Positions 5,508 through 33,374 of a stretch of DNA of 40,715 nt are shown here, in pieces. This stretch comes from Nitrososphaerota archaeon. Its GTDB lineage: Archaea > Thermoproteota > Nitrososphaeria > Nitrososphaerales > Nitrosopumilaceae. The notes beneath the pieces were generated by a model that ran no database searches, was not told the DNA's origin, and saw only the letters and a program-made list of their open reading frames with translations. How positions within the stretch are numbered: position 1 is the first letter of the stretch; each line of letters opens with the position of its first letter. The position numbers were made by a program, and so were the translations under genes. The stretch spans positions 1 to 40,715 of the forward strand of contig JAGWGC010000004.1 in NCBI GenBank assembly GCA_028867615.1, given 5' to 3'.

Positions 5508-5723
5508 TTATTTTTTTCTGCGTGAATTTATCAAAAATATAATTGCCATTACAAAAAAAGATGTTGTGAGTATTAAAAGAAAATAAGCACGAAAGTAATC
5601 AAATGGCAATGGTAAACCGGGCAGACCTGTGTGCGATGCAAAAATTGGAAAGCATCCATATGTCACGGCTAGCGATATTCCGCCAAAGATGAAAAGAACA
5701 ATTGAAAGATGTAGAGTTTTCAT
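5508..5723 (-). CDS. Small membrane protein of the MKTLHL-tag array
   Basis: 71 aa MKTLHLSIVLFIFGG..., two hydrophobic segments; tag atgaaaactctacatctt. Confidence 0.7.
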   Translation of the reverse strand: MKTLHLSIVLFIFGGISLAVTYGCFPIFASHTGLPGLPLPFDYFRAYFLLILTTSFFVMAIIFLINSRRKK

Positions 5724-5739
5724 TTTGAATCTATTGTGT

Positions 5740-6813
5740 CTATTTCTCTATCGATACTTGCTCTATATCTGACAGTTTTGTACCATTAAAGAAAATATCA
5801 AGCATAGATTTCATTCCTTGATCAAAAGGCATCATAGAATTGAAGATTACATGATACTTGTTTTGATAAAACTCAAAAGCGTAAAGATCCAAGTGGTTTT
5901 TCTTATCACTAGTGTATGCATTATACGAATAAACAGTATTATTTCCAAACTGCCAAGCTTGTGCAAATTTTATCATGCCGTGATAACTGGAATAATCTGT
6001 TGACAACCCTGTGCAGTTGCAATATGAAATATCAATGCTTGGAGTGAATAAAGTTGGTTTGTCCAGAGTGTATCTGAAATGTACTTTATTTACATCATAT
6101 GATATATCAATTAGGAATGATCCGTCTTCGAGAAATAACGGTATAGAAATTGGGATTTTTGACTGGCTCTTGTATTTTTCTAATAAAAGTCTGGAAGAAT
6201 TCAATACTTGATCTTTTGATAAATGCCTACCATCACCTACCAAACCATTCTCATTTACAGTCCATGTGGGAGTTTTTACATAGATGTATCCAGCATCATC
6301 AGCACCTAGGTCAAGTTGCGGTAATGCGTTTTCTACTGGCTTGGCCAGTATCTTTATACCGAAAAAGTATGATGCACCATCAATTATCCTATACTCCTCA
6401 AAATGACACGGATCTTCAATTCGTTGCCTTTCATATTGTGGCCAGTATTTTACCAAGCAGTGTGAATCTAAGTCAACCATACTATATGCTCTATATGATG
6501 AGATGTCATCTCTATCCCCACCAAGCCACGAAGGCAGCCGTATCAAAAGAAATCTTTGGTATGCATTTGCACTGTCACTATAATTGTATGAGCTTGGATA
6601 CATGAAATATCCAAAGCCATTTGGCTTCATGTCTGATACTTTGACATATCCAGTAGATGAATCTGTAAAAGCAGAAGGATAAAGGTAAATCCTGTCATTT
6701 TGTTTTGATATTGCTGAAGGAGAAGTCAATACAATTATGCCATACACTACAATGGCAAAAACAACTATTGAAATCATAAAAATGGAGAATTTTGAAATGT
6801 GTAGAGTTTTCAT
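5740..6813 (-). CDS. Secreted MKTLHI-tag protein, unknown function
   Basis: 357 aa; tag start followed by signal-anchor; ATGA overlap with the upstream gene at 6810-6813. Confidence 0.75.
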   Translation of the reverse strand: MKTLHISKFSIFMISIVVFAIVVYGIIVLTSPSAISKQNDRIYLYPSAFTDSSTGYVKVSDMKPNGFGYFMYPSSYNYSDSANAYQRFLLIRLPSWLGGDRDDISSYRAYSMVDLDSHCLVKYWPQYERQRIEDPCHFEEYRIIDGASYFFGIKILAKPVENALPQLDLGADDAGYIYVKTPTWTVNENGLVGDGRHLSKDQVLNSSRLLLEKYKSQSKIPISIPLFLEDGSFLIDISYDVNKVHFRYTLDKPTLFTPSIDISYCNCTGLSTDYSSYHGMIKFAQAWQFGNNTVYSYNAYTSDKKNHLDLYAFEFYQNKYHVIFNSMMPFDQGMKSMLDIFFNGTKLSDIEQVSIEK

Positions 6814-7361
6814 GGTACCACCTGGACATATTTAGTGGATGCATTTGCCAAGGGTGAACCAAATAATGTTCTCCATGCAAATGCAGTAAGAGTATAATTT
6901 CCAGGAACCGTCGGCGTCCAGCTAACGGCACATTGCGAAAAAGATTGTTTTGGAGTGAACATTCCTTGTCCCCATCCAATATGATACCCCAAACCTGTTG
7001 AATTAGACACCTGTACAATACAATAGTAATAGATGAGAGGTTGTGTATTTTCCATCTTTGTAATGTTGGCTACAACCTGGTAAGGCTGATTCACTTTAAC
7101 TATATTTATTGGATAGGTGTCAATTGGTCCTGCTACATACACGTTAGTTTGTACTGCAAAAGGTAAGAGAGTGTAATTTTTAGGAATATTTCCAAACAAG
7201 TCTTGATAATTAGTCAGATTTGCAGATAGATTTTGATTAGTTTGATCAAGGATTTTTGTTTGAGATTGTAATGTTAGAATTTGAAAAAGCATAACAGATA
7301 TGATTGCTATTGATACCATAATTACACCAATTACAAGTATTAAGAGATGCAGAGTTTTCAT
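6810..7361 (-). CDS. Secreted/membrane-anchored MKTLHL-tag protein with Ig-like C-terminal part
   Basis: 183 aa MKTLHLLILVIGVIMVSIA...; SWTPTVPGNYTLTAFAW resembles archaeal secreted beta-sandwich segments. Confidence 0.7.
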   Translation of the reverse strand: MKTLHLLILVIGVIMVSIAIISVMLFQILTLQSQTKILDQTNQNLSANLTNYQDLFGNIPKNYTLLPFAVQTNVYVAGPIDTYPINIVKVNQPYQVVANITKMENTQPLIYYYCIVQVSNSTGLGYHIGWGQGMFTPKQSFSQCAVSWTPTVPGNYTLTAFAWRTLFGSPLANASTKYVQVVP

Positions 7362-7368
7362 TTTACAT

Positions 7369-8478
7369 CTAGTATCCTTGGTTTTCTGTAAACGGTTTAG
7401 GAATCATCTGTATAGTTTTTGTTCCGTTCTGAAATAATATAGTAAACATTCTGTTTGTAGGCGTTAGATGTTCATGATAATCAATTTTGTTTCCATCAGA
7501 CGTTGCGTTAAATGAAGCATAATCACCAATTTTTGGGCTATCAATAAGACCTCTAGGAACAAACAGAGTCATCTTGCTGTCACCTGTAGTTTCAAGTGAC
7601 AATGTCAACCCATGAGTTGTCAAATCAGACGCAATGTTGTTAATTTTACTTCCTATCGAATAATACGTTATTGTAGAATTGGTATTGTATAGTGATACAG
7701 TCTGCAATGGAACTCCCCAACCCCTATCTACAAGTTTAGACGCAGAAGACAAGGTCACGCATGCAGGATTATCTTGCAGATACTCATTTGTAGGGTCAGA
7801 TTTTTTTATTATCACTACCGAGCCTGCTTTGCAGTTTAGATCTTTAGCATCAATCCCGTACTGGGCTTGTCTTGACGGTGACAACAGAGTTGTTTTGACT
7901 GGAAATTCATGAATTATGTTTGCTTCTTTGAAGATCCATTTTCCATCAACTTGTTGCCAAGTTCTGGTATCACCATAATCATCGCTTAGACTAGGTGTAG
8001 AATATTTGTAAAGTGTTTTTCCAGCAAAAGGTTGTACAGAATATGAAAATATTATAGTAGCGTTATCATGTCTTGGTGCATCATTACCTAGACTACCACC
8101 AACCCCAGTACGAGTAGTAAGCCTGTCATGAATTACAATATAACAGTGCTCATTTGAACCGAGTGTTATTTGTGGATAGCCACCTTCTCCACTACCATCT
8201 TTGATATCGACATCATTTATCAACATGGTCTCATTTTTTGTGTTGTACAATTCTAACCAACCAATAGCCCAAGGTCCTATGGAACCATTGTTATCAACAC
8301 AGGATTTTACGCCATCAGCATAAAATGAAATAGGTCCCCACAACTCAACTTGGGTTACAATGATTGGAGGTACACCCGTATCTAGAATAATTGTGGTATC
8401 AGCGCTGGCTAGATGAATTTGCACACAAGTAAACAGAGCTATCAGAATCAAAGTTATCGAAAGGTGTAGAGTTTTCAT
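7369..8478 (-). CDS. Secreted MKTLHL-tag protein with divergent RGW-type Cys module
   Basis: 369 aa; signal peptide; LSPSRQAQYGIDAKDLNCKAGSVVIIKK...NPACV...KLVDRGWGVP. Confidence 0.75.
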   Translation of the reverse strand: MKTLHLSITLILIALFTCVQIHLASADTTIILDTGVPPIIVTQVELWGPISFYADGVKSCVDNNGSIGPWAIGWLELYNTKNETMLINDVDIKDGSGEGGYPQITLGSNEHCYIVIHDRLTTRTGVGGSLGNDAPRHDNATIIFSYSVQPFAGKTLYKYSTPSLSDDYGDTRTWQQVDGKWIFKEANIIHEFPVKTTLLSPSRQAQYGIDAKDLNCKAGSVVIIKKSDPTNEYLQDNPACVTLSSASKLVDRGWGVPLQTVSLYNTNSTITYYSIGSKINNIASDLTTHGLTLSLETTGDSKMTLFVPRGLIDSPKIGDYASFNATSDGNKIDYHEHLTPTNRMFTILFQNGTKTIQMIPKPFTENQGY

Positions 8479-8482
8479 TTGA

Positions 8483-9937
8483 TCATATCATCTGCGCTCC
8501 AATGATTTCTATCATATGAGTTCCATTTGTAAATGGAATTGATATAGTTCTGTCAATTGTAGTAGCATTGATTTCTTGAAAGATAGACTCCTGACCGTTT
8601 ACCAATACATAGAACTTGTCATCATTACCAGTTGGTAGTTTTGCATCAATCATTGCCCTAGGCAATGTTACTGTCAATGTTCCATTACTTGGTGCTTTCA
8701 ATGACAATACAAGGGATTTTGATGGCGTATCCATTTTTGCGTCAAGAATTTTTCCATTTCCTATCACGTCATAATTTATTGTAAAATTGGTATTGGCCAC
8801 ATTGATGTACATTGGAGTAACCCCAGTATCATAGAGGGATGTTTTTGGATACTGTGTAACATCAAATCTCTTTTCAGTCATGTTTGAGGCATATCCTACA
8901 TGTACGGTATACGTTCCAGATTGGTTGAGATAAAATGGTCCTCCCAAGTCTCCCATGGTGTATTTATCGTCAATCTGACTCATAGTAGAAGGACATGAGG
9001 TCCATGTTGTCTTACCCTGCCACACTATGACACCATCACGGATTACAAGAACGGATGGAAAATCACAATGACCATAGCCTTTCACATTTATTCCAAAATT
9101 TACTGGGTCGCCAATGACATATGTTGAATTCAGACCATTTATTGTGATGTCTAGATTTTCCTGCGGAATTGAGGTGTCTACTCTTACTAGCCTCAAAATT
9201 GCAAGATCATCAGGATTGGTACAGGACTCACTGACACTTGGAGGGTATACGCATACGCGCGAATTGTGAATTACCGCGTAATGGTCTACTCCATTAACTG
9301 TAACTTTTTCGGTATAGATGTTGGCACCCAGTTTCTGGGCCGTAAAATTTGGATTGTTCGGGCATGGTAATCTAAATACTTCACATGGGCCTGGAATGGT
9401 ACTGCTTGTATTGAGAGAAACCACGTTGGTCGCATTTTCTGCAGACTGTGGCAACACCAAGACCCAGCCATAAAGCCATGGGTGTGGTTCTGTATCATAC
9501 TGAAATTCACCAATATTTGTGAAGGTAAAGTTGAATGACTTGCCTGGCAAAAGCATTCCACCATGTATAGAGTGTGTTGCATTCCAGAAGAGTGGATCGT
9601 CATGGTTTTCAGCCATTATGGTATTTGCCTCAGTTTTGTCGTCGTTTGTCCATTGAACGGTGTTGTTTGCTCCAAGAACAGCTATTAGATATCGTGGTTC
9701 ATAATTTTTGCCAGAATTTGGATCAGCAGAACCATCTGGAATTATGATCTTAGAAATACTTGTAGGTATGCTAGTCTGATTTGTTTGGTTTTGGGATTGA
9801 CTTTGATTTGATCGTACAAAGCCAACAATATCTACAGAAGGAGGATGAATAATGGGGTTGAAAATTATGTATGTGCTCACAATAACTAACGACACAATTG
9901 CTACTATTGTGATTATTGTAAGATGTAGAGTTTTCAT
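8483..9937 (-). CDS. Secreted MKTLHL-tag protein with cupredoxin-like N-terminal domain and beta-sandwich C-terminus
   Basis: 484 aa; LGANNTVQWTNDDKTEANTI...GEFQYDTEPHPWLYGWVLVLP cupredoxin-like but lacking the ligand Cys; LPRAMIDAK...TNGTHMIEI. Confidence 0.75.
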   Translation of the reverse strand: MKTLHLTIITIVAIVSLVIVSTYIIFNPIIHPPSVDIVGFVRSNQSQSQNQTNQTSIPTSISKIIIPDGSADPNSGKNYEPRYLIAVLGANNTVQWTNDDKTEANTIMAENHDDPLFWNATHSIHGGMLLPGKSFNFTFTNIGEFQYDTEPHPWLYGWVLVLPQSAENATNVVSLNTSSTIPGPCEVFRLPCPNNPNFTAQKLGANIYTEKVTVNGVDHYAVIHNSRVCVYPPSVSESCTNPDDLAILRLVRVDTSIPQENLDITINGLNSTYVIGDPVNFGINVKGYGHCDFPSVLVIRDGVIVWQGKTTWTSCPSTMSQIDDKYTMGDLGGPFYLNQSGTYTVHVGYASNMTEKRFDVTQYPKTSLYDTGVTPMYINVANTNFTINYDVIGNGKILDAKMDTPSKSLVLSLKAPSNGTLTVTLPRAMIDAKLPTGNDDKFYVLVNGQESIFQEINATTIDRTISIPFTNGTHMIEIIGAQMI

Positions 9938-9938
9938 T

Positions 9939-10994
9939 TTATCTCAGAGGAATCTTAAACTCCCACGGTCCACCCAACACTTCAATTGTCATTTTAGCAG
10001 GTGTCATAAAATTAGCAGCAGGTCTTTTTCCAGCTTCAACACCACTATTTGGAGAGGACATCCTACGCCAAGATATTTCCTGGATTACAAAATTTAGCTC
10101 TTTTGCTTTAGCTGCCAATGGCGGGACCATTATGCCATACATGTTGTAATGAAAGTCAATCATGTCATTTGAATGGCCTCCCTGTCCCTGATATTGAAAT
10201 ACCACATACGAATTTCCAAGATCGTCTGTTATCTTCACCATGGGATGTAATGTTGGATGGCCAAACTCTTGTCTTTTTGGTACCAATTTTTCCTTGACAT
10301 AAAAGTAAAATCGCGTTCCTGTGTCATATACTTCAAGCGCAGGAAAGGTCAGCGCAAATATTCCAGTTTTTATCTGCTTGACAGCTGGTATAACTTTGCG
10401 CAAACCATCAAGCCCAGGATTTGGGTAAAAATCATCCTTTGTCGCTTCAACAAATTCAAACTTGGTATTTTTCCCTATTATGTGAAAATCATCTTGTGGA
10501 GATGCATCACGAACTGAAAATGGCGTCATTTTATCTGAATCAAGATGTGAAACATTTACTCGATTTCCCTTACAAACAACAAGTCCATCAAGTTTTACCA
10601 AATCAAGATTTGTTTCTTCATATTGGAATTGTTCTCGTATCGTTGTCAAGGTAACTTTGGTTGCGTCTACTGCTTCAGTCTTGCTTACCTGCATCAGAGA
10701 GCCTGCATCACCTCCTCTTGCATTAAATGAAACAATATCGCTTACTCGCATCATTGGGATGTTTTTACTTGCATCATCAAGGAAAACAAAGTCTGCATCA
10801 AAGGCTCGCTTGTAGCTTGATTCCATTGGAAAACATTTGGCACCTACTGTTTTTGTCCCAAATACTTTTACAACATCGCCGCTTTTTACTCCCAGTTTTT
10901 CCATGTGGGCACTGTCTAGTCTGATATGACTTTTGCCTAAATCTTCATCATACAATCCTCGTATTCTAAAAGTAAGTGTAGGTTGACTTTCCAT
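9939..10994 (-). CDS. Stand-alone CDC48/p97 N-domain-like protein, no AAA module
   Basis: From MESQPTLTFRIRG; LYDEDLGKSHIRLDSAHMEKLGVKSGDVVKVFGTKTVGAKCFPM matches the double-psi barrel start of CDC48-N; no Walker motifs; ATG 10994 lies 25 nt from the TATA-like box. Confidence 0.75.
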   Translation of the reverse strand: MESQPTLTFRIRGLYDEDLGKSHIRLDSAHMEKLGVKSGDVVKVFGTKTVGAKCFPMESSYKRAFDADFVFLDDASKNIPMMRVSDIVSFNARGGDAGSLMQVSKTEAVDATKVTLTTIREQFQYEETNLDLVKLDGLVVCKGNRVNVSHLDSDKMTPFSVRDASPQDDFHIIGKNTKFEFVEATKDDFYPNPGLDGLRKVIPAVKQIKTGIFALTFPALEVYDTGTRFYFYVKEKLVPKRQEFGHPTLHPMVKITDDLGNSYVVFQYQGQGGHSNDMIDFHYNMYGIMVPPLAAKAKELNFVIQEISWRRMSSPNSGVEAGKRPAANFMTPAKMTIEVLGGPWEFKIPLR

Positions 10995-11012
10995 TTTACA
11001 TGTACTGTACGT

Positions 11013-11038
11013 GTATAGTTTAAAAAACTGGTGTATAA
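11013..11038 (-). promoter_or_regulatory. Shared promoter element P1
   Basis: Minus strand TTATACACCAGTTTTTTAAACTATAC, upstream of the 10994 start. Confidence 0.65.
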
Positions 11039-11103
11039 TTCTTCTATTTTGCAATATGATATAATAGAAAAAGAAATATCTTTGATACTCATACATATGA
11101 TAC

Positions 11104-12098: not shown

Positions 12099-13568
12099 TC
12101 ATTTCCCAAATTTCACCCTGTAAAATACAATTGTAGAAATTATGCCAATCAATAAAACTGGAATTGCAAACGGAAATTCCGGGATTTTGATTTCATGATT
12201 CAGATTTATTATATTTCCAAATGTATTCCCATCATCATTACTTGCTCGGAAATAGATGTTATCTCCTGGGGCATCCATATCCCAGCCAACATAGACATTC
12301 CCACCATCTACAGCCAACTCAGGCTCTAGGTTGCCATTTTCTTCAAGGCTGCCACTCAGATTGATTACATTATCAATAGTACCATTATCACCACTTTTGG
12401 CGAAAAATACATCTCCCCTATGTGAAGTAATGTTAAAAGCCCTCCAGCTAAGGTATACATTTTTTCCTGATGTAGCATCCAAAGTGGAAGTCCAGAGATC
12501 ATCCCCTGAGGATATTTTGATGGGTTCGCCAAACGTATTGCCTCCATCAGAACTTTTTGTAAGATATAGACCTTGACTAGAATTCATCGTATTAGCACCA
12601 GTGTTAGAATAATGATAAAAAGAAACAAAGACATTATTTCCATTTACAGCAACCTGTGGAGATTCTGAATTATAACCAAGTTTTTTGCTTAGATTAATTT
12701 TGTTGTTAAAAGTGGAACCCCCATCAGAACTTTTTATAAAGAATACGTCTGGATACTGACCTTCTGACCACACTACAAACACATTATTTTTTGATGCTGC
12801 TAGTTGAGGAACAAGTGCTAGCGTTACATTGCTCAGATTGATGGGTTTTGTAAAAGTTGCTCCATTATCAGCACTCTTGCTGAAAAAAATATTATCTGTT
12901 TGGCATTTATCATGCGGACAGACTGATTCACCATCCCATGTCACATAGATATTGTGTTCATATACAGCAATTTTTGTATAAAGGGATTCACTATCATCAA
13001 TAGATACAGGCTTTCCAAATGTAATACCGTTATCAGTACTTGTTCTAAGACCATGGTTGACCTTTAAAGAAGTCAAATTATTGTAGTTTATTGCCATGTA
13101 CACATTTGGCTCTGTTGCAAGCATTGCATGGATAACAGCATATCCTCTGCCACCATTAGGATCTAAAACAATTGGATTTGCAAACGTGTTACCATTATCA
13201 ATACTTTTTTCAAAAAAAACTTTTGTGTTACCGTCTGGATAACTGGAAAACCATGTCAAGTAGACAGATTTTCCTGAGACCTCCACATGAGGATCTGAAG
13301 CATAGCCGTTGTCATTAGTTATTTTTATAATTTTATCAAAGCTTGCACCGCCGTCAGTACTTTTTCTAAAGAATATGTCTTGATGGTCAGTGTTACTATT
13401 GTATACAACATAAACATTATTTCCAGATGCAGCAATTTGTGAGAGTTGAAACTTTGGAGGACCTGATCCTTCCATGTAGGCATTATCTGCAAAAGCTGCT
13501 CTGAGACAGAATATTCCAATTATCATAATTACAGATATTGTAATTATTGCAACGTGCATGGTTTTCAT
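12099..13568 (-). CDS. Secreted BNR/Asp-box (sialidase-like) beta-propeller with PEF-type C-terminus
   Basis: From MKTMHVAIITISVIM; repeated S.DGG.TF/S.DNG.TF boxes; C-term IPEFPFAIPVLLIGIISTIVFYRVKFGK. Confidence 0.8.
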   Translation of the reverse strand: MKTMHVAIITISVIMIIGIFCLRAAFADNAYMEGSGPPKFQLSQIAASGNNVYVVYNSNTDHQDIFFRKSTDGGASFDKIIKITNDNGYASDPHVEVSGKSVYLTWFSSYPDGNTKVFFEKSIDNGNTFANPIVLDPNGGRGYAVIHAMLATEPNVYMAINYNNLTSLKVNHGLRTSTDNGITFGKPVSIDDSESLYTKIAVYEHNIYVTWDGESVCPHDKCQTDNIFFSKSADNGATFTKPINLSNVTLALVPQLAASKNNVFVVWSEGQYPDVFFIKSSDGGSTFNNKINLSKKLGYNSESPQVAVNGNNVFVSFYHYSNTGANTMNSSQGLYLTKSSDGGNTFGEPIKISSGDDLWTSTLDATSGKNVYLSWRAFNITSHRGDVFFAKSGDNGTIDNVINLSGSLEENGNLEPELAVDGGNVYVGWDMDAPGDNIYFRASNDDGNTFGNIINLNHEIKIPEFPFAIPVLLIGIISTIVFYRVKFGK

Positions 13569-13816
13569 TTCTTTTGAACCCGTCCTGATATTGTGAAATA
13601 TATTCCAAGTAGGGTTAAAACTAAACCTGGCATTCCAAATGGTAGAAGAGACCATGGATCTTCAAGAGGGCAATTAGTTCCAGGTTTGCTACATGTTTTT
13701 TCCATGTATTCTTTATGTTGAAAATCTTCAACAAGATAAATACTAGTCAATGCCAACAAGAAACAACCTACAGAAAAAATTGAGGTTTTCATCATTGTAA
13801 GATGTAGAGTTTTCAT
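13565..13816 (-). CDS. Small membrane protein of the MKTLHL-tag array
   Basis: 83 aa; tag start; two hydrophobic segments; ATGA overlap with the next gene. Confidence 0.7.
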   Translation of the reverse strand: MKTLHLTMMKTSIFSVGCFLLALTSIYLVEDFQHKEYMEKTCSKPGTNCPLEDPWSLLPFGMPGLVLTLLGIYFTISGRVQKK

Positions 13817-13822
13817 TTTATC

Positions 13823-14224
13823 CTATGGCCCACATACTGCCAATTCAAGTGGTACAGGTTTTGTGTAGATTGCCTTACCAGTATGGTCATCTAGAGCAAT
13901 CACGTATCCGGTATCATCATTTCTAAATACTGAAAGATAAGCAAAATGATCTCTTGCATCATTTGGAATAACAGAAAATGAGCATGTAAATATTGAATTT
14001 TCATCTATTTTGTGATTATCAGTAACTGGAAGGATTTTTCCATCAGATGTGATATGTACATGCCAGTCAGTTTCATGTGGAAAGATCCCGTATTTTGAAG
14101 CTGTGTAATTAGCCGACTTGGAAACATTCCATGAAATTGTGTCAGTTGTTGGAACAAGTAACAAATATGCTAGAATGGATATAGCTACACCAGAAACAAT
14201 TATTGACAGATGTAGTGTTTTCAT
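13823..14224 (-). CDS. Small secreted MKTLHL-tag protein
   Basis: 133 aa; tag start and signal-anchor. Confidence 0.7.
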   Translation of the reverse strand: MKTLHLSIIVSGVAISILAYLLLVPTTDTISWNVSKSANYTASKYGIFPHETDWHVHITSDGKILPVTDNHKIDENSIFTCSFSVIPNDARDHFAYLSVFRNDDTGYVIALDDHTGKAIYTKPVPLELAVCGP

Positions 14225-14233
14225 TTTTCATTG

Positions 14234-17315: not shown

Positions 17316-17319
17316 TATT

Positions 17320-18215: not shown

Positions 18216-18834
18216 TATCCTTGATCTTCTTTTCATATTCTTCTTCGGACAAGACAGCTTTTGTAGAATCAATGCCAATGTCAAGTGTAGAGTTTATCAC
18301 ATCCACTCCTACTGAATTAAATGGTATGGTTCCCATTTTGCTTCCCATCAGATTGGATATGGCATCACTTGCAATCACCAGTTTTTTGTTTAGCTCCTCG
18401 TGGGCCTTTTCATCAGATTGGAAGTTTGGGTCATCTATGATGGCAATGTCGCCTTGTGCGTCTGCGTAGGGTTTGCTCCATACCGTATTAAAAAAAGGCG
18501 GATAACCATTTGTATAGACAAGATATTTTTCACCCTGAACTATAGAGTATCCGCATCCTTGAAGGTCATTTGTCATTACAATCAATGGTTTTTGGCCTAC
18601 TGTGCCTCTCCAAATTTTGTCTACTGTAAAGTATACTTTCCATTGATGATCTGTAGTATTGTCAATATGTTGCACAGTTCCAGCAAAAACCTCGTCTGAA
18701 AGTAGGTAAAACTGTGGCGCGTTATATGATGTCAATTTCGCAGAACAGGTGTCTGCATATGCATGCTGAGTTGTACCAAGAAGTATGACAAATAGACTCA
18801 ACGTCATTATCATTGCAAGATGCAAAGTTTTCAT
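18148..18834 (-). CDS. Secreted MKTLHL-tag TIMP/NTR-like protein; C-terminus overlaps the repeat arm
   Basis: CSAKLTSYNAPQFYLLSDEVFAGTVQHIDN...WKVYFTVDKIWRGTVGQ...GCGYSIVQGEKYLVYTNG; ends GGFCPIYGGKIDCQKSVELE inside the IR. Confidence 0.7.
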   Translation of the reverse strand: MKTLHLAMIMTLSLFVILLGTTQHAYADTCSAKLTSYNAPQFYLLSDEVFAGTVQHIDNTTDHQWKVYFTVDKIWRGTVGQKPLIVMTNDLQGCGYSIVQGEKYLVYTNGYPPFFNTVWSKPYADAQGDIAIIDDPNFQSDEKAHEELNKKLVIASDAISNLMGSKMGTIPFNSVGVDVINSTLDIGIDSTKAVLSEEEYEKKIKDIIGGFCPIYGGKIDCQKSVELE

Positions 18835-18843: not shown

Positions 18844-21114
18844 TTACCTGTTACAAACTCCAGATTGGTTCATGATGCTAGAACCAACCCCGACTGTTAT
18901 AGGATAGTCGTATGCAGCATAATTCAGTCCCGTATTGGAATCTGTAATACCAGCAGGCCTGCCATATACCACAGGATTTAATCCATAATATCCATCATCT
19001 AGGTCCTTGGTAATGATTGAAAATGTATATGTGCCATTAGACCATGGCTTGAATGTAACAGGATTATCACTTACTGACATATGACCCAGTCCGAGTATCG
19101 GGAAACTTTTCACCAGATCCCGATTAGCGACATTCCAATTACATACATCAAAAGACTTTACAAATCCAGGATCTGTTTTGGATTGATCAATCGTACTGTC
19201 CTTGTAGTCAAACATAAAGTCCACGGGCTTGTCAAAAGAGCGCACATGTAACGAGAATGTTACATTTTGGCTGGTTGGTGTAAGGTGAACTGATGTAACA
19301 GTAGTATTTGTAATATCATAAAGCAGTTGTTCATGAGATACTGTTTTTATATAATAGACTCCAACGTTATGCAATCCAGTTATTTTGTACTCGTATGTTT
19401 GCAATAGACAATAGAATGTTTGTCCATACCATGGAAAATCATCTAAAATAATTCTTGACTGATTGTCATATCCTACTGCAAAGGCTTGCCCTCCACAAGA
19501 AAATGATATACCATAAAATCCAGCCTTGTGACCAGTGTTTACCGTATAAACAACTGTTGTGTTTCGGGTCGTAATGGTATTCTGCGATGATGATATAGTG
19601 ACATTGTTGGTGTCATTTGCCAGATTGTTTGCATCAAAGACTCTAGCACCAACATTACTTTGAGATGTAGAGTGATAATATTGTACACATATTTTTCCAG
19701 TCGAGTCAGTGTGCATGTAGAGAACCGGAGTATAGCCTGTGTGTATTATGGTACCATTGTCGTACAGTGGACTTGAATGTCCAGTTCCATAGTTATACGG
19801 TACATCACATATACCATGGGTTGCCGTTTTATTCAACCCAAGTCCAATACTTGCCATTTCTTTTAACCACGACATTACGCTCATCTGGATCATGTTGTCT
19901 CCCTTTTCAAATGGAATTGTGATGGTTCTATCAGTAGATGTGTCTGTTTCGTTAAAGATGCCTATTGAACCAGAGTTTGTCATAATGTAAAATGTATCAT
20001 TTTTGTCACCAAGGTTTGTGTCAATTACAGATCTTGGCAGAGTTAATTTCACATTGCCATCAGTATTAGACTGGATTGGAATGAAAAGCCGCTTTCCCTG
20101 TACATCTCTTATGATGCCTAATAGTTTTCCTCCTGTTATATCATATGTTACCAATGAATCAGATCCTGTGACCTTGATTGTGCTTTGTAGGTTGGTTTTT
20201 TGATTTTCAGGCTCGGCCCAACCACGTATCAAAAGTTGTGCGGCATGAGAAGCATAAACACATGCAGGGGAACTGTCTTCTGATTTTATTACGAGGACAA
20301 AATCTTTTTGGCATGTGATATTTTTTGCAGGTATTCCAGATTTGAACTGTCCAAGCGGATCTAATGTTATGGTAACTACATCTCCGCCTCCACCATAAGT
20401 TCGAATCGTTTCATTCGTATTGTTTTTTACCAAGTCATTTGACGCAGAGGAATTTACTTTGATTTCTACACTGCTGTATGATATGCCATGTGTTGCATTT
20501 ATTTGCCAGATTCCAGAAATTGCATTTGTTGGAATTTTAAGATCATTTGACGAAAACTGCCCTGTATTGTCTGAATTTGTTTGGATGGATTTCACAACAT
20601 TACCGTTTGGATCAATTAATGACAGTTGGATGATTCTATCAGGACCTTCCGCACCAAGTACTTTGACAGAATCTCCTGCCGCATATGTATTTTTGACTAC
20701 ATTAAGTGCTATCGGAGGACCAGACGGCAGACCTATCACAAAGTGAGCAGTCACATTACTTGTAGAAGTACTTGCAATAACAGAATAGACGCCTAGTTTG
20801 TATGAAGAGATATCTAAAGTGTAGTTGACAACTCCCGTTGAAGGAATCTCAATGCTATGTGAAAATATGGCAGTTCCTGATTGATTGTCAATTTTGAGAT
20901 ATTCCAGCTTGTTTGGAACTCCAGTTATTGTGATAACAGGTTTGTCTGAATTTTCATAATGCGACTTGTCTGACTGGATTGAGATTTGTATTGGGTTCAT
21001 GCCTAAACATGTTTGTTTTCCATTTACTGTATCACATGTAGCATAGACATGACCGGTAAGAAACATTATGAAAAATACTGATGCGATAATTGCGGTCAGA
21101 TGTAGAGTTTTCAT
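18844..21114 (-). CDS. Large multi-module secreted MKTLHL-tag protein
   Basis: From MKTLHLTAIIASVF; beta-sandwich repeats; DPLGQFKSGIPAKNITCQKDFVLVIKSEDSSPACV...LIRGWAE; LPRSVIDTN; GFYGISFSCGGQAFAVGYDNQSRII. Confidence 0.85.
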   Translation of the reverse strand: MKTLHLTAIIASVFFIMFLTGHVYATCDTVNGKQTCLGMNPIQISIQSDKSHYENSDKPVITITGVPNKLEYLKIDNQSGTAIFSHSIEIPSTGVVNYTLDISSYKLGVYSVIASTSTSNVTAHFVIGLPSGPPIALNVVKNTYAAGDSVKVLGAEGPDRIIQLSLIDPNGNVVKSIQTNSDNTGQFSSNDLKIPTNAISGIWQINATHGISYSSVEIKVNSSASNDLVKNNTNETIRTYGGGGDVVTITLDPLGQFKSGIPAKNITCQKDFVLVIKSEDSSPACVYASHAAQLLIRGWAEPENQKTNLQSTIKVTGSDSLVTYDITGGKLLGIIRDVQGKRLFIPIQSNTDGNVKLTLPRSVIDTNLGDKNDTFYIMTNSGSIGIFNETDTSTDRTITIPFEKGDNMIQMSVMSWLKEMASIGLGLNKTATHGICDVPYNYGTGHSSPLYDNGTIIHTGYTPVLYMHTDSTGKICVQYYHSTSQSNVGARVFDANNLANDTNNVTISSSQNTITTRNTTVVYTVNTGHKAGFYGISFSCGGQAFAVGYDNQSRIILDDFPWYGQTFYCLLQTYEYKITGLHNVGVYYIKTVSHEQLLYDITNTTVTSVHLTPTSQNVTFSLHVRSFDKPVDFMFDYKDSTIDQSKTDPGFVKSFDVCNWNVANRDLVKSFPILGLGHMSVSDNPVTFKPWSNGTYTFSIITKDLDDGYYGLNPVVYGRPAGITDSNTGLNYAAYDYPITVGVGSSIMNQSGVCNR

Positions 21115-22655
21115 TGTTTTTTTCCGGATTTCAAAACAACAACTGTACACAGTACTGCCACAGGAATACCGAATAACAATAACAAAATAAAACCGCTTCC
21201 TTCTTGGAATATGTTTGCTGGCCTAGGTGCGTCTACAAATACATCACTGCAACAGAGAATTGTTTTGTTTTCCTCATGATTGAGGTTAATTAACGGTCCA
21301 AAATCTTTGCCATGATTATTGCTTGCCATTACATACAGATAGTCTACAGGCATTGTAGAACGCAATATAACATAAACATGATTTTCATGGGCGGTCAGAC
21401 CGCCGGCCAGACCTTCAAATCCACCAGTCCATAGCAGCCCTTTGTTTATCAGAACAGGATTACCAAAACTTGTACCGTTGTCTGTGCTCTTTATGAGCAA
21501 AGTCTCTGGACTTCCAAAAGTATCCTCGTAACCATAGCTAAAAAACACATCATTTGAGCTGGCAGCAAACCCAAAGATCTCAGGTCTAGCATAGTCATGT
21601 ATGAGAGTCGGATTGCTAAAGGTAGAGCCGCCGTCAGAACTTTTTGTAAAATAGATTCCAGATTTGTAGTTGTTCTTGTCGTAAGCGTTATCATAATGGT
21701 AAAACGCGACGTAGACATTGTTTCCTTGTGCTGTAAGGTGTGCGGATGTAGATTCTCCAATGTTATGGCTTAGATCGGTCTTGGCACTAAAGGTATGTCC
21801 TCCATCTGCGCTCTTTGTAAAAAATATGTGAGGAAACTGTCCTTCCTGCCATGCAACATAAACATCATTGTCAGATGTCACCATCTGGTGATAATTTGAT
21901 ATGTCGTCTCCCTTGCTTAGATTGATCTGGCCACCAAAAGTAGAGCCGTTGTCTACACTTTGTCGTAACACAATATCAGACTGCCTGCACATAGGCGAGC
22001 AGTTAGCATAGTATTCCGATGATACATAGACATTGGTCCCAGATATTGTAATCTTTGATGTTAGCGAACTACCAACCTCGTTAAGAATTATAGGCTTGTC
22101 AAATGTCTTGCCATAGTCGTTGCTCTCTTTGAGTAAGAGATTCCAGTTGCCCGTAGTATTTCCATATTTCATAAGTGCGTAGACATTTGGGCCGTTTGTA
22201 GCTAACTGTTCGATGAAGGTGTTTCCCGACTGCGGGCCTGAATCCAAAAGCTGTGCATCACCAAACGAGTTTCCGCCATCTGTACTCTTTCTGAAAAACA
22301 CATGCTTGCTGTTGTCACTCAAACTGGAGGAATCCCAAGCAACGTATACATTATTTCCAGATACTGTCACATATGGTTCTGATGCATCGCCTGTTTCATA
22401 ATTGAGTTTAATTATATTACCAAAATTTTTTCCACCATCAACACTTGATCGAAAAAAGACATTGCCTGGACCGCTGTTTGAATTTTCTTGGTATGTGACA
22501 TAGATGCTGTTTCCCAAGGCAAGAGTTTGTGAGATTTGATAGTGTGCAACCTCCACACGCCCACCCATATTCTGTGCAAAAGCTTGGTGAGATATGATAA
22601 TTATGATCATGGTGACTACAATTCCAGTTATCATTACAAGATGTAGAGTTTTCAT
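21111..22655 (-). CDS. Secreted BNR/Asp-box (sialidase-like) beta-propeller with C-terminal TM
   Basis: MKTLHLVMITGIVV; repeated STDGGNSF, SVDNGSTF, SADGGHTF, SSDGGSTF. Confidence 0.85.
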   Translation of the reverse strand: MKTLHLVMITGIVVTMIIIIISHQAFAQNMGGRVEVAHYQISQTLALGNSIYVTYQENSNSGPGNVFFRSSVDGGKNFGNIIKLNYETGDASEPYVTVSGNNVYVAWDSSSLSDNSKHVFFRKSTDGGNSFGDAQLLDSGPQSGNTFIEQLATNGPNVYALMKYGNTTGNWNLLLKESNDYGKTFDKPIILNEVGSSLTSKITISGTNVYVSSEYYANCSPMCRQSDIVLRQSVDNGSTFGGQINLSKGDDISNYHQMVTSDNDVYVAWQEGQFPHIFFTKSADGGHTFSAKTDLSHNIGESTSAHLTAQGNNVYVAFYHYDNAYDKNNYKSGIYFTKSSDGGSTFSNPTLIHDYARPEIFGFAASSNDVFFSYGYEDTFGSPETLLIKSTDNGTSFGNPVLINKGLLWTGGFEGLAGGLTAHENHVYVILRSTMPVDYLYVMASNNHGKDFGPLINLNHEENKTILCCSDVFVDAPRPANIFQEGSGFILLLLFGIPVAVLCTVVVLKSGKKQ

Positions 22656-23434: not shown

Positions 23435-23456
23435 CACATGTACGGGATAATCATCT

Positions 23457-23477
23457 CTTAAAAAACTGGCGTAGATT
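23457..23477 (-). promoter_or_regulatory. Shared promoter element P2
   Basis: Minus strand AATCTACGCCAGTTTTTTAAG, 24 nt upstream of ATG 23434. Confidence 0.65.
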
Positions 23478-23580: not shown

Positions 23581-24494
23581 TATTTTATCTCTAAATCAAG
23601 TGGTTCCGTAACACGGTTATTTACCGTAACATATGGGAAAAAACTACCGACAGGTGCAGACTTATCAATTGTCATTTTAATAGGGATGGTATCTTGGGTT
23701 TTGTTTGCAAGACCTGAAACATAAACTGCTGGAACAGTTATTCCACACGGAAGATTCTTTATCTCAAGGCGAAATGCTCGTACATTTAATGATTCTGACC
23801 AAGATGAAAATATAATGAAATTGTAGGACTTTCCCCTTTCTACCTCAAGGAGTGGTATGGCTGAATAGTGTGGAAAATAACTTGATGCATTCTCAAGAGA
23901 GGTATTGATTCCTGCTTCTCTTATGATGGGAGGTACAATTGGATGATACATTATTTTTGTAGCATTTGATGAGCCTGTGAGGTTGGTTGTACCTGCAAAG
24001 ACAGTGTTGATGTAAACCAGCACATTATCAGAGACACCATTAAAATCATTTCCGGAAGGACCCGGCGTAAACATCTCATTATGAAATTGTAATGATTTGT
24101 TAGTATCCCAATCCGTAAAGTAAAAACATCCTGTCTGGTCAGTTGTCGTTTTGCCCATCAGTAAATTTTCTGATATTGTAGTACCATTGTCAAGTGTGGC
24201 GTTGTTTAGATAAAACATAATTTTTTGATTTGCCAAACCAGTCCCATTTTGGTTGGTTAAATATCCTTTAACTGACATGCCATCAAATGATTCCATGGTT
24301 ACAGTTGGAAACACTGTGGAAGAAAGTGCAGTGCTATAGTTTCCAAGCTTTACGCTTGAAGAAGTATTGTAAGATTCATTGTTTTGTAGCGTCAGAGGAG
24401 GATGCGTATTAAGATAGGAGTTCAAAACAAATACAACCATACTTGTTGCTATAATTCCTAGTGTTATGACTATTACAAGATGTAGAGTTTTCAT
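23580..24494 (-). CDS. Secreted MKTLHL-tag protein
   Basis: From MKTLHLVIVITLGII; signal-anchor; beta-rich body. Confidence 0.75.
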   Translation of the reverse strand: MKTLHLVIVITLGIIATSMVVFVLNSYLNTHPPLTLQNNESYNTSSSVKLGNYSTALSSTVFPTVTMESFDGMSVKGYLTNQNGTGLANQKIMFYLNNATLDNGTTISENLLMGKTTTDQTGCFYFTDWDTNKSLQFHNEMFTPGPSGNDFNGVSDNVLVYINTVFAGTTNLTGSSNATKIMYHPIVPPIIREAGINTSLENASSYFPHYSAIPLLEVERGKSYNFIIFSSWSESLNVRAFRLEIKNLPCGITVPAVYVSGLANKTQDTIPIKMTIDKSAPVGSFFPYVTVNNRVTEPLDLEIK

Positions 24495-25920: not shown

Positions 25921-25943
25921 GTTTAAAAAATTAGTGTAGAATT
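25921..25943 (-). promoter_or_regulatory. Shared promoter element P3
   Basis: Minus strand AATTCTACACTAATTTTTTAAAC, about 25 nt from GTG 25897. Confidence 0.6.
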
Positions 25944-26710: not shown

Positions 26711-26735
26711 AATCTACACCACTTTTTTAAACTAT
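26711..26735 (+). promoter_or_regulatory. Shared promoter element P4
   Basis: AATCTACACCACTTTTTTAAACTAT; ATG 26758 lies 26 nt downstream of the TATA-like box. Confidence 0.7.
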
Positions 26736-26757: not shown

Positions 26758-27192
26758 ATGAAAACTATGTCTGTTTTGATAATTGCAGGAATGATAATAA
26801 CATCCGCCATTATTTTTTCTTTATTTATGGTACAATCTGAAAAGCAATTCAATATCTACATTACAGGAATTCATACTGCTGCTGGATACGTATATGTTAA
26901 TGGCAACCGGGCCACACAAATTGTTGATCCAATACGTAATACATTTGGAAACTCAATTCATGTTTCTAAAGGAACTACTGTTGTGCTTCATGTTATGAAC
27001 AAAGACCAAGATACTAGTACTGTGATGGATTTCAACATTGACGGATTTAATGTACACATAAACCATCTGAGATATTCTCAATCTCAATCAGTAACTTTTC
27101 TTGCTGATAAAAAGGGAATTTTTACTTATTATTCAAACTTACATCCCGAAATGAATGGCACAATAACAATTGATCCTGTGGATATTCATTAG
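26758..27192 (+). CDS. Membrane-anchored cupredoxin-like protein with altered copper site
   Basis: MKTMSVLIIAGMI; KKGIFTYYSNLHPEMNGTITI keeps His/Met but has no Cys in the ligand loop. Confidence 0.7.
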   Translation: MKTMSVLIIAGMIITSAIIFSLFMVQSEKQFNIYITGIHTAAGYVYVNGNRATQIVDPIRNTFGNSIHVSKGTTVVLHVMNKDQDTSTVMDFNIDGFNVHINHLRYSQSQSVTFLADKKGIFTYYSNLHPEMNGTITIDPVDIH

Positions 27193-27195: not shown

Positions 27196-28611
27196 ATGAA
27201 AACTCTACATTATTGCATAATTACAATCTCGTTGATAGGAGTTAGTTTTTTTGTTAGTGAAGATGCGTATGGATGTCTTGGCAATTGTCCACCTATAACT
27301 CCGCCACCTCACTACGCTTCCTCACCAATTACAGTTCACACAAATCTTGAAAACTATTCTACTGGAGATAACATAATAATTACAGGTCATATTTTTAATC
27401 AAACCAAAGATACGCCTCTGATGATCAAGATCTTTGATCCTATACGCCAACTCCAATTTGACAAGAATGTTCCTGTTTCATCAAATGGAAATTATACTTG
27501 GACACTCTCAACAGTTGACTTTTGGTCATTTGACGCTTCAGGCAATTATACAGTGCTAGCTCAGTACGGTCAGGTCTACGCAATTACTAATTTTAATCTT
27601 AATTCCACCTTGACTCAATACCTATACGCACAAAGCCCATTATGGCAATTCCATAACGGCATGCCAGCTGAAGACGTGCACTGTCATGCGGGTTTTAGTT
27701 TGATCATCAGAAAAGAAAACTTTGCTCCGGCTTGCACGCATCCAATTACTGCAACCAATCTTATTCTTAGCGGCTGGGCTCTTGGAACACCTCCGATAAA
27801 ACTTTTCATTAATAGTATTGACATGAGCGGATTACGACAAAACTATACGGTTGGTCAACCCATTGATGCCACAGTAAATTATGCAGGATATTGGAGTAGG
27901 GCATGGGAGCCAGACGTAAAGATTTTTGATGCAAATGATACTCAAATCTGGTTTAATTGTCTAAGATGTATTACAAATAATGTCATACTTGGAGGAGGAC
28001 CATCAATTCCATCATATGGTAATTTTACTTATCATGTACAGGATTACAATGGACGCCTTCCAATAATCAATAAAACAGGAACCTACACAATGGTTGCATC
28101 GCTTGACAATAAAACAGCAAGTGCCGAGATTATTGTAGTAAAACCATCGATGCTACCTGCATCATTTGAGCCATGTGACACTCCTTATCCTCAATCAAAT
28201 ACAGGTGTAGCAGTATTGTACATGTCACCTAATTCAACAGGGAAAATTTGTGCGACATATCACAATCCAGATTCTCCTACGCAATCTAACATCAGTGTTT
28301 TTATCGCAAAAGATATGCAACAGCAAGCAAGCGAAATCACTACCTCTGCATCTCCTGATATTGTTCCAACGGGAAACAGTACAATAGTGTATACCATTAA
28401 AACTGGAAGTCAAGCAGGATTCTATGGCATATCCTTTTTTTGTAATAGTGTTCCATTTGTAGTGGGTTATGACAATCAATCAAGAATAATTTTGGATGAT
28501 TTTCCATGGCTATATAAAAATGACATATGTCTTTCCCAGACCAATGTGTTTCAAATCACGGGTTTGAGTGGAATTCATGTAAAATATGTGACTGAGGCAC
28601 ATCGTGGTTAA
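27196..28611 (+). CDS. Multi-module secreted MKTLHY-tag protein
   Basis: SPLWQFHNGMPAEDVHCHAGFSLIIRKENFAPACT...LILSGWAL; GFYGISFFCNSVPFVVGYDNQSRIILDDFPW. Confidence 0.8.
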   Translation: MKTLHYCIITISLIGVSFFVSEDAYGCLGNCPPITPPPHYASSPITVHTNLENYSTGDNIIITGHIFNQTKDTPLMIKIFDPIRQLQFDKNVPVSSNGNYTWTLSTVDFWSFDASGNYTVLAQYGQVYAITNFNLNSTLTQYLYAQSPLWQFHNGMPAEDVHCHAGFSLIIRKENFAPACTHPITATNLILSGWALGTPPIKLFINSIDMSGLRQNYTVGQPIDATVNYAGYWSRAWEPDVKIFDANDTQIWFNCLRCITNNVILGGGPSIPSYGNFTYHVQDYNGRLPIINKTGTYTMVASLDNKTASAEIIVVKPSMLPASFEPCDTPYPQSNTGVAVLYMSPNSTGKICATYHNPDSPTQSNISVFIAKDMQQQASEITTSASPDIVPTGNSTIVYTIKTGSQAGFYGISFFCNSVPFVVGYDNQSRIILDDFPWLYKNDICLSQTNVFQITGLSGIHVKYVTEAHRG

Positions 28612-29016: not shown

Positions 29017-29043
29017 AATTCTACACCACTTTTTTAAACTATG
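29017..29043 (+). promoter_or_regulatory. Shared promoter element P5
   Basis: AATTCTACACCACTTTTTTAAACTATG; ATG 29066 lies 27 nt downstream of the TATA-like box. Confidence 0.7.
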
Positions 29044-29065: not shown

Positions 29066-29668
29066 ATGAAAATTCTACACCTCTCATTAATCACAGTTTT
29101 ACTTTTGACACTTGCTCCCATGTTAAATGCTTCGGGATATGGAATTGGACCCACAGTAACAGTCCAGTTGCAAGAGTCTCCACTAAAACAATTCAAATCA
29201 GGTGTTGTCACACAAAACATAGCATGCAAGGAGGGATTCGTACTTGCAATAAAAAAACAAGGACATCAGCCAGCATGTGTAGATCCTGACACTGTACCAA
29301 AACTTGTACTTAGAGGATGGTCAGAAAATCCATTAGATAATTTACTTTTAAAATATGGAAACCAAACACAAGCAAACCTTGTTTTCTATGACATACTAAA
29401 TGAGCCAAAAATAAGGGATTGGTCCATGAAAGGATGGAGATTTAGTGATTATAGCTATGCATCAAATGGTGAAACTGGCCAATCTTCTGCTACAATACAT
29501 CTCTACTTGCCTTCTAACATTGGAAAACATGAATGTGAAAATGGCTCATATGGATTTGTAGTAATCAATCTAAAACCAGTTGAAATTGAGCATAACTATA
29601 CAGAGGTAGGCTGTGAGATAGTTACAACTACTGCCACAAGTGTGGATCCTGAATCAAATGGACGATAA
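29066..29668 (+). CDS. Secreted MKILHL-tag protein with RGW Cys module
   Basis: SPLKQFKSGVVTQNIACKEGFVLAIKKQGHQPACVDPDTVPKLVLRGWSE. Confidence 0.8.
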   Translation: MKILHLSLITVLLLTLAPMLNASGYGIGPTVTVQLQESPLKQFKSGVVTQNIACKEGFVLAIKKQGHQPACVDPDTVPKLVLRGWSENPLDNLLLKYGNQTQANLVFYDILNEPKIRDWSMKGWRFSDYSYASNGETGQSSATIHLYLPSNIGKHECENGSYGFVVINLKPVEIEHNYTEVGCEIVTTTATSVDPESNGR

Positions 29669-29678: not shown

Positions 29679-30305
29679 ATGAAAACTCTACATCTTTCAA
29701 TCATTGTTGGAATGGGAATTACTTTGCTTGTTATTGGAAATTCCAACTTATCATTTGCACAAGAAGGTGGACTTGATCTAGGTGGTTCAAAGTCGTATAC
29801 TATCTATAGTCCATTACAACAATTCAAATCAGGAATAATGGCAGAAGCTGTAAAATGTTCTACGGACTATACTCTCGTAATAAAATCTGAAGATAATTCT
29901 CCAGCTTGTGTAAAACATGATACTGCTCAAAAATTGATTGAACGAGGATGGGCATTGAACTATGTAAATATAGTTGGCAAGGAATCAATTAACTTATCAG
30001 CATATCAAGGAGTCTCTAATGAGGCTTTTTACAACAATGGAACAGTGGTCTCAAATTTTACTATTGACGTGAATATAAAAAATTTCACGCCATCAAATAC
30101 TTTACTTGCTTTACAGGTCTACCATAATGATGGAAGTATATACAAAACAATAAGCGTGCCTTCAGATACGATACAACTAGACGGTTTTTACAAATATGAT
30201 CTAATTGCCGTATTGGATAAAAATCATCCAGTACCATTCAAAATTATTGCAACTTACAATAACGAAACTGCTATGACATATGCTCCCGTCTTTGCTCATC
30301 CTTAG
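29679..30305 (+). CDS. Secreted MKTLHL-tag protein with RGW Cys module
   Basis: SPLQQFKSGIMAEAVKCSTDYTLVIKSEDNSPACVKHDTAQKLIERGWAL. Confidence 0.8.
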   Translation: MKTLHLSIIVGMGITLLVIGNSNLSFAQEGGLDLGGSKSYTIYSPLQQFKSGIMAEAVKCSTDYTLVIKSEDNSPACVKHDTAQKLIERGWALNYVNIVGKESINLSAYQGVSNEAFYNNGTVVSNFTIDVNIKNFTPSNTLLALQVYHNDGSIYKTISVPSDTIQLDGFYKYDLIAVLDKNHPVPFKIIATYNNETAMTYAPVFAHP

Positions 30306-30746: not shown

Positions 30747-30769
30747 AATCTACGCCAGTCTTTTAAATT
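30747..30769 (+). promoter_or_regulatory. Shared promoter element P6
   Basis: AATCTACGCCAGTCTTTTAAATT upstream of ATG 30790. Confidence 0.6.
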
Positions 30770-32053: not shown

Positions 32054-32097
32054 CATTTGTTCGAGTAGGCTCAATTCTGAAAGGATCTTACTGAGAT

Positions 32098-32120
32098 AAT
32101 CTACGTCAGTTTTTTAAATG
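32098..32120 (+). promoter_or_regulatory. Shared promoter element P7
   Basis: AATCTACGTCAGTTTTTTAAATG; ATG 32143 lies 24 nt downstream of the TATA-like box. Confidence 0.65.
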
Positions 32121-32142
32121 ATACTTGTACCTTTATCTCAAA

Positions 32143-32763
32143 ATGAAATCTGTAAATCTCTTTGCGCTAATGATGACAATTGGTTTTCTTGGTTTGATTC
32201 ACTCACAAGTATATGCACAAATGGAAAACAATGGAACTCAATTTTCTAATGGTACACTACAAACAATTGTGTTACAGTGGCCTCCACAGTCTGCTATCCA
32301 ACATATTACAGTAGTCATAGGAGTAAACAACACAATCAAGTGGGTCAAAGAAGGTCTCAAGAGTGATACTATTACAGCAGATAATACCAACGATCCAGAT
32401 TTTGCAAAAGCCGCACCATATTTTGGAAATCATTTTGATGGTACACTTGTAAATTCTACTCAAGTGGGAATGAATGAAACCGAGATATTTTATAAAGACC
32501 CATCAGGTCAGGTTAGAAGTTTTTTTTCAGAACCTGGAAGGTATGCACACAACATACTGGATGAAAGAAACCCTTTCTTTCAATACACCTTCACAAGAGT
32601 AGGTACTTTTGGTTACCATGGTAAACCATGGGAAAGATGTTCTGTCACTGTCTTGGCTCCGTTGTCAAGTGCTTCTGTCCCAGAATTTCCGTCTGTATCT
32701 CCGGTTTTGTTAATTGGTATTTTGTCATTGATTTTCTTTCATGGAGTAAGGATTAGAAAATGA
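32143..32763 (+). CDS. Secreted cupredoxin-like protein with degenerate copper site and PEF-type C-terminus
   Basis: MKSVNLFALMMTIGF; VVIGVNNTIKWVKEGLKSDTITA...VGTFGYHGKPWERCSVTVL; VPEFPSVSPVLLIGILSLIFFHGVRIRK. Confidence 0.75.
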   Translation: MKSVNLFALMMTIGFLGLIHSQVYAQMENNGTQFSNGTLQTIVLQWPPQSAIQHITVVIGVNNTIKWVKEGLKSDTITADNTNDPDFAKAAPYFGNHFDGTLVNSTQVGMNETEIFYKDPSGQVRSFFSEPGRYAHNILDERNPFFQYTFTRVGTFGYHGKPWERCSVTVLAPLSSASVPEFPSVSPVLLIGILSLIFFHGVRIRK

Positions 32764-33374
32764 AAACTCTGCATCTTTTAATAATAATTGGAGTGACAAT
32801 AGTAGGATTTATTGCAACAGTTGTAATTATGCCGAATCAGAATAATGAGAAAGTAATACTAAATGCAAATGGGGGTAAACCACTCGATTTGACATTTCAT
32901 GTAAAAGAACTTGATGTGAGAACATATGCTATCGTCACTCCTAGCCTTTCAATAAAAAATGCTATAGTTACGGAAACACTAACTTTCGTTAACCCTGCAT
33001 TTCCCATAGTGCTTGAAAGAGGAAAAAACGCTACGTTGAAAATCGAAATAGAGTCACATGTGCCTTATCCCTTGTCTTTGCAGTTACGGGTTTTCAATAA
33101 TGTAGACAATAATTATGATCTGGCATTTGCACATGTCAAGTTTAACGGTGATGCCTCTGGTTTACCAAATGGCTTAACTGCATCATTTAACAATGATGTG
33201 ACCACAGTGGATGCAAATGGTAGTGACCAAGAGACTTTGACCTTTAATGTAGGACAGAATGTACAAGCAGGTAATTATCAAATCGGCGTACTTGGACTTG
33301 CCACTATCAATAGTCCTGCCGGCACCGAGATGGGTAACAGTCATACCCTCTGGATACCAATCACAATAAAGTAA
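32760..33374 (+). CDS. Secreted MKTLHL-tag protein
   Basis: 204 aa; start overlaps the previous TGA; signal-anchor; NVQAGNYQIGVLGLA segment. Confidence 0.75.
   Translation: MKTLHLLIIIGVTIVGFIATVVIMPNQNNEKVILNANGGKPLDLTFHVKELDVRTYAIVTPSLSIKNAIVTETLTFVNPAFPIVLERGKNATLKIEIESHVPYPLSLQLRVFNNVDNNYDLAFAHVKFNGDASGLPNGLTASFNNDVTTVDANGSDQETLTFNVGQNVQAGNYQIGVLGLATINSPAGTEMGNSHTLWIPITIK

Follow-up and report, generated by a model that had tools for sequence, protein, structure and literature searches.

The window analysed here is a contig of 40,715 nucleotides (nt; JAGWGC010000004.1) from a 1.6 Mb draft genome of the genus Candidatus Nitrosotalea, ammonia-oxidising archaea of acid soils. It carries many secreted-protein genes that begin with nearly the same nucleotides, encoding MKTLHL or a close variant. 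We propose that this gene-start tag is both the shared 5′ head of a large, operon-borne family of Nitrosotalea secreted genes and a joint for the exchange of gene cassettes, and put the probability of this reading at roughly 0.78. Homology between loci breaks at tags, recent crossovers fall inside tags, tag-bounded cassettes are shared across species, and the codons of the head are individually conserved. The seam itself is well supported, and the cause of the nucleotide likeness among the heads is less certain.

The tag is a genuine and unusual feature that occurs throughout Nitrosotalea, where dozens of different secreted-protein genes begin with nearly the same 27 nt. Conservation extends from about −3 to +27 (AAA-ATG-AAA-ACT-CTA-CAT-CTT-TCA-ATA-ATT) across 198 non-redundant tagged genes. 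The original prediction, made from the window alone, was thus right about a shared start but too short in giving it 18–21 nt. With up to three mismatches, a 21-mer of the tag matches the window 12 times against 0.01 expected, and an 18-mer matches the window's own genome 58 times, mostly on few contigs, against 5 for the reversed control. At one mismatch or fewer, the tag is present in 34 of 37 Nitrosotalea genomes; the remaining families of the order have no comparable excess. Amino-acid variants of the head (MKTLHY, MKTLHI, MKILHL) are common. A viral origin was rejected, as viral contigs held no exact 20-mer. Exact 20-mers outside Nitrosotalea and unnamed 'Thaumarchaeota' records came from five bacterial contigs and were taken as chance, and where matches to the 3′ half were inspected in the family's other genera, they were located in unrelated coding regions or at a distance from any tag-like start. 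The keyword-matched passages of two Nitrosotalea genome papers (PMC5767755, PMC4836417) contain nothing on such a tag or cassette family.

Homology breaks at tagged gene starts

Homology blocks of at least 85% identity and at least 250 bp yielded 250 block ends. Tagged starts coincided with 93 of these against 7.0 expected (13-fold), and untagged starts with 8 of 250 against 8.0 expected (1.0-fold). When the starts were divided by operon position, the enrichment was 16.7-fold at internal tagged starts, compared to 2.5-fold at internal untagged and 0.9-fold at other untagged starts. This difference between the two internal classes argues that the breaks do not merely reflect the movement of whole genes in tight operons. 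Among tag pairs with a homologous flank, homology ran across the tag in 3 and was broken at the tag in 57. At a control point 60 nt inside the body, by comparison, it continued in 33 pairs and broke in 5; for control points from 60 to 400 nt inside the body, both flanks were shared in 29–37 pairs and only one in 1–6. Identity profiles of the one-sided pairs switched at about −3 to +12. The reverse combination, one body with different heads, was observed for gene 6810–7361 and its 83–84% identical homologue on contig C203 of the same genome (MKISYF), whose heads differ over the first ~15 codons.

Two recent events, one strain-level indel and one cassette of 97% identity, have their crossovers inside the tag. 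In the first, window positions 1147–13818 and 13791–15267 match positions 1–12672 and 17668–19144 of contig C177 in genome bin G047 at 99.6–99.7% identity. After a match of ~12.7 kb, C177 carries 5 kb of additional genes before the match resumes. In the window, the two matching parts join at the tag whose gene starts at position 13816 (13799..13816, minus strand). Distinguishing bases on both sides place the crossover within AAATGAAAACTCTACA (13803..13819, minus strand). In the second event, a 1,352-bp tag-to-tag cassette is 97.3% identical between C203 and contig C295 of G047, with homology setting in at the ATG of one tag and ending 14 nt inside the following one. By comparison, identity in the core gene rfcS is only 85% between the G047 copy and that of the window genome. 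Further tag-bounded cassettes also exceed the core identity (93.7% versus 77% and 94.6% versus 85%). Together, the breakpoints at tags, the crossovers inside the tag and the cross-species tag-to-tag cassettes strongly support the earlier suggestion of a recombination or conversion seam that swaps bodies behind a fixed head.

Tagged genes in their operons

In the loci that we fetched, the tag (up to three mismatches) was found on 79% of secreted genes at internal operon positions, on 38–46% of operon-leading secreted genes and on 9% of other secreted genes, outside arrays. Tagged genes commonly overlap their neighbours by 4 nt or lie behind a gap of up to about 12 nt. An ATGA overlap with the preceding gene occurs in 72 of 244 tagged genes (about 30%), and in 62 of these 72 the last residue of the preceding protein is lysine. 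Here, the conserved A-run ahead of the ATG belongs to the final codon of the upstream gene, which stops at the TGA. As the tag often holds the upstream Lys-stop and always the downstream start, an exchange at the tag spares both genes.

We propose that a cassette extends from one tag to the next and comprises head, body, stop and next head. Recombination between two tags, with the crossover mainly at −3 to +12, would insert, delete or replace whole bodies. Such a joint would be frame-safe in that it would supply the downstream start codon and the N-region of the signal peptide and, in the genes with an ATGA overlap, also the upstream last codon (mostly Lys) and TGA stop. Each exchange would put part of the tag on a new body and could thereby help tags to stay alike within and between species (concerted evolution), while selection for MKTLHLSII as a signal peptide, together with an additional sequence constraint, may maintain the consensus.

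In the window, all 17 start codons named in the original prediction are in-frame gene starts. When the first 18 nt of each gene, ATG included, are compared, 15 of these 17 carry the tag within three mismatches; the genes starting at 13568 and 26758 have five. On the minus strand, tags without mismatch lie at 5706..5723 (gene 5508–5723), 9920..9937, 22638..22655 (with an ATGA overlap with the upstream CDC48_N gene) and 24477..24494, in addition to the exact copy at the indel joint. One mismatch is found at 8461..8478 and 21097..21114, and two at 6796..6813 (gene 5740–6813), 7344..7361 (gene 6810–7361), 14207..14224 and 18817..18834. The tag at 21097..21114 has an ATGA overlap with gene 21111–22655 and, with that at 18817..18834, forms the ends of a tag-to-tag homology block (18826–21113). 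The diverged tag at 13551..13568 reads MKTMHV. On the plus strand, tags are located at 27196..27213 (two mismatches, MKTLHY), 29066..29083 (three mismatches, MKILHL, an operon-leading gene), 29679..29696 (no mismatch) and 32760..32777 (one mismatch). Diverged plus-strand copies lead an operon with a cupredoxin-like gene at 26758..26775 (MKTMSV) and begin a gene at 32143..32160 (four mismatches, MKSVNL) that was absent from the earlier list.

The description of the bodies as otherwise unrelated is mostly right, except that 6 of the 15 clustered window bodies belong to one loose linkage cluster, and several bodies carry WING-49. Pfam backs the labels of propeller and cupredoxin that these bodies had been given, and yielded no match for the label 'TIMP-like'. 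The WING-49 domain (NF058652) is common to the otherwise different tagged proteins 18847–21114, 27196–28608 and 29679–30302. TIGR04296, the model for the C-terminal PEFG-like (PEFG-CTERM) sorting motif of surface proteins, scored 19–21 bits, against a curated cut-off of 25, with two of the examined window proteins, one of which (1441–2280) is untagged.

Operon starts share a promoter, TCTACRCCA-N-TTTTTTAAA, with the start codon 25–26 nt downstream in most leaders, so that leaderless or nearly leaderless mRNAs are predicted. In the window, the motif occurs on the plus strand at 26713..26732 (TCTACACCACTTTTTTAAAC, with the ATG 25 nt beyond it), at 29020..29039 and, with four mismatches, at 30749..30768 and 32100..32119. 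On the minus strand, it has two mismatches at 25921..25940 and at 11018..11037, ahead of the CDC48_N-like gene 9939–11105, and four at 23456..23475, ahead of the CDC48_N gene. Judging by the motif, the genes behind it look like one regulon. The shared promoter is followed by GTCCAGTACG near the start codon, and its upstream element resembles the tag by eye. Proteins with a CDC48 N-terminal domain (9939–11105 and 22652–23437, the latter also with CDC48_2) lead operons of tagged secreted genes; both stand behind the shared promoter, and no AAA domain was reported for either. The window also contains an IS6-like element with cargo ORFs (open reading frames) at 15471–18206 (DDE transposase 16188–17315), which has the ends GGGTTCTGT/ACAGAACCC and an 8-bp target duplication (CACCGATG) and is missing from the matching G047 contig.

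Codon choice and the likeness of the heads

The excess of synonymous conservation in the head is present when the tag codons of the 198 genes are compared with codons in bodies. Leu4 is CTA at a frequency of 0.71 in tags versus 0.15 in bodies, and the earlier count of 12 such copies in the window was exact. Likewise, Thr3 is ACT at 0.83 versus 0.30 (ACA being the commonest codon in bodies), Leu6 is CTT at 0.76 versus 0.28, Ser7 is TCA at 0.77 versus 0.31 and Ile8 is ATA at 0.78 versus 0.38. The choice is position-specific over codons 2–9, since the same residue takes CTA at Leu4 versus CTT at Leu6, and ATA at Ile8 versus ATT at Ile9. The bias drops stepwise over codons 7–12 and is near body usage by codons 10–12. 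In most tag codons the third position varies more than the first and second, which indicates that the protein is also constrained.

In orthologues with saturated bodies (same codon at 0.45), tag codons agree at 0.65, close to the 0.67 of non-homologous pairs. This suggests that simple descent does not explain the tag. For gauging selection on tags, non-recombined collinear orthologues number only three pairs. Tags are slightly more similar within genomes (0.701) than between them (0.663; permutation p 0.025). In genomes G018 and G049, whose rfcS is 70–75% identical and whose GC content is 42–48%, CTT at codon 6, ATA at codon 8 and ATT at codon 9 are retained, and CTT-NCA-ATA-ATT persists in deep, GC-richer lineages. 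A dialect of G049, ACG-CTG-CAC-CTT-GCA-ATA-ATT, occurs on adjoining genes with mostly unrelated bodies. This dialect and the slightly greater likeness within genomes speak for homogenisation by exchange, and the retained CTT, ATA and ATT for an additional constraint. The head is kept better in its 3′ half, CATCTTNCAATAATT, than in its 5′ half at the loci of G018 and G049 (L235–L254, L169, L170); by inspection, CATCTTNCAATAATT and the subsequent GCA form a candidate short dyad, TTGCAATAATTGCAA.

While homogenisation by exchange is probably the main cause of the nucleotide identity, an RNA-level role of codons 2–9 is the alternative that survives best, and we regard it as possible though unlikely. 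Here, these codons would form a sequence that is read on internal operon genes, be it by ribosomes, by a small RNA or by a protein that binds RNA; selection would maintain it, and recombination at the tag would be a by-product of this shared sequence. Opposite codons for the same residue close together (Leu4/Leu6, Ile8/Ile9), the retention of CTT-NCA-ATA-ATT at 42–48% GC and the preference for internal secreted genes (79% versus 9% outside arrays) are all consistent with this. However, complementarity of the tag to 16S ribosomal RNA was 18.0 versus a shuffled mean of 18.1 (16S of N. devanaterra; the assembly of the window genome has none). Shine-Dalgarno motifs were about as frequent ahead of tagged internal genes (0.14) as of untagged ones (0.18), and a role as Shine-Dalgarno substitute was rejected. 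Moreover, the window had no Rfam match, and the stepwise fading of the bias over codons 7–12 and the greater variability of third than of first and second positions in most codons also speak against such an element. No antisense or small-RNA candidate was noticed among the inspected subset of non-start matches; one tag-like match (C16:1524) lies inside a long ORF. The other role named in the original prediction, that of a translation or RNA-binding element, is thus unsupported. The residual constraint (CTT-NCA-ATA-ATT) is explained neither by 16S pairing nor by Shine-Dalgarno replacement. More doubtful still is a selected element across the stop/start overlap that serves as recombination site and start signal at once, through which species would trade ready-to-express secreted genes.

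Weighing cassette exchange against other systems

Several points weigh against cassette exchange at the tag. Internal untagged starts are mildly enriched in block ends too (2.5-fold, 7 observed), and breakpoints are resolved only to within the tag because BLAST blocks run through any tag, tags being alike. Most of the data are draft metagenome assemblies, and the G047 bin looks mixed, with coverage near 25 for contigs nearly identical to the window's genome, near 10 for others, and a contamination of 7. The 5-kb indel is a difference between near-identical strains, for which assembly error is not fully excluded. As tag similarity within genomes is barely above that between genomes, homogenisation inside genomes is weak. 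Finally, CTT/ATA/ATT codons are kept in deep lineages, where homogenisation alone would allow drift unless cassettes keep flowing. Contig C177 also switches sharply from ~83% to near-100% identity to the window at the end of rfcS (window 1147–1209): its rfcS end at 1147–1206 resembles that of the other lineage, then near-identity to the window follows. This switch reflects either a real transfer of an island from one species to another or a chimeric assembly.

As in the phase-variable shufflons of surface genes, a dedicated site-specific recombinase could recognise the tag and move cassettes, but this seems improbable to us. Crossovers do fall within a short defined interval, and models of archaeal XerA/integron-integrase and XerC/D match, below threshold, the ORF 33708–34457 beside the cluster. 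On the cluster's other side, ORF 4923–5315 is recombinase-like by eye only, and the N. devanaterra cluster has homologues of both ORFs at one of its edges. Yet ORF 33708–34457 is partial, ORF 4923–5315 has no Pfam or NCBIfam match, and only 3–4 of 37 loci with at least three tags have homologues of these ORFs (other recombinase types were not searched). No obvious pair of inverted arms for a recombinase is seen in the coding tag, and 14–20 bp of shared identity suits general short-homology recombination equally. We favour general homologous or short-homology recombination as the probable engine of exchange, given that the recombinase-like ORFs near the cluster are weak or partial and that few tag-rich loci have them.

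The phase-variable surface lipoprotein loci vpma/Xer1, vsa/HvsR and vsp of mycoplasmas resemble the tag loci in that variable bodies of surface-protein families are exchanged by recombination behind a conserved gene-start joint. In vpma (PMC2268961), recombination takes place at sites in the 5′ untranslated region (−1 to −72), the tested switch requires Xer1 adjoining the locus, and following inversion a unique promoter drives a single gene. The Nitrosotalea joint, in contrast, lies inside the coding head at the stop/start overlap; its copies are many and occur in several operons with their own promoters, and exchange is observed between strains and species. Instead of a single expression site, the window has several putative promoters of the shared type, and no recombinase is consistently linked to the tag loci as far as homologues of the flanking ORFs were followed (other types were not searched). 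Integron arrays likewise hold exchangeable genes with few promoters, joined at repeats and shared across species. In the tag arrays, unlike integrons, the genes' own coding starts make up the repeat, and many tagged genes overlap by 4 nt or have gaps of 1–12 nt between them. Such spacing, which was judged with no attC model run, leaves no space in which attC sites would fit. A complete integron integrase was not recognised either; ORF 33708–34457 scored 34 bits with NF040815 against a cut-off of 220.

Shared descent with protein-level selection only, in which the heads would be paralogous signal peptides kept for MKTLHLSII, is very improbable. While it accommodates the common variants MKTLHY, MKTLHI and MKILHL and the conservation of first and second codon positions, in most codons at least as good as that of the third, it leaves unexplained the codon-specific conservation, the breakpoints at tags and the fact that saturated orthologues agree more in their tag codons than in their body codons. 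Signal regions of conotoxin-type families show 'position-specific codon conservation' over divergent mature parts, which are generally related. The tags share with them the codon-level conservation of the signal peptide, but here whole unrelated bodies are exchanged, in archaeal operons. Scarcely credible is a DNA-level site at which an operon regulator binds the tag, suggested by its likeness to the TCTACRCCA promoter element (AAACTCTACATCTTTCAATAATT looks like AAATCTACACCACTTTTTTAAAC by eye), because promoters inside all the internal genes would make transcription begin within the signal-peptide sequence and the breakpoints would be left unexplained.

An ATGA overlap with the preceding gene, as in genes translationally coupled by termination-reinitiation (PMC6728339), is frequent among internal tagged genes, but plain ATGA coupling is widespread in prokaryotes and needs no 27 conserved nucleotides. 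Exchange at the tag would constitute a nucleotide-resolved case of archaeal gene exchange via a short coding joint that spares both neighbours. The tag provides a simple mark for spotting exchanged cassettes in any Nitrosotalea genome. If true, the proposed exchange would explain how the repertoire of surface and secreted proteins changes fast in acid-soil ammonia oxidisers.

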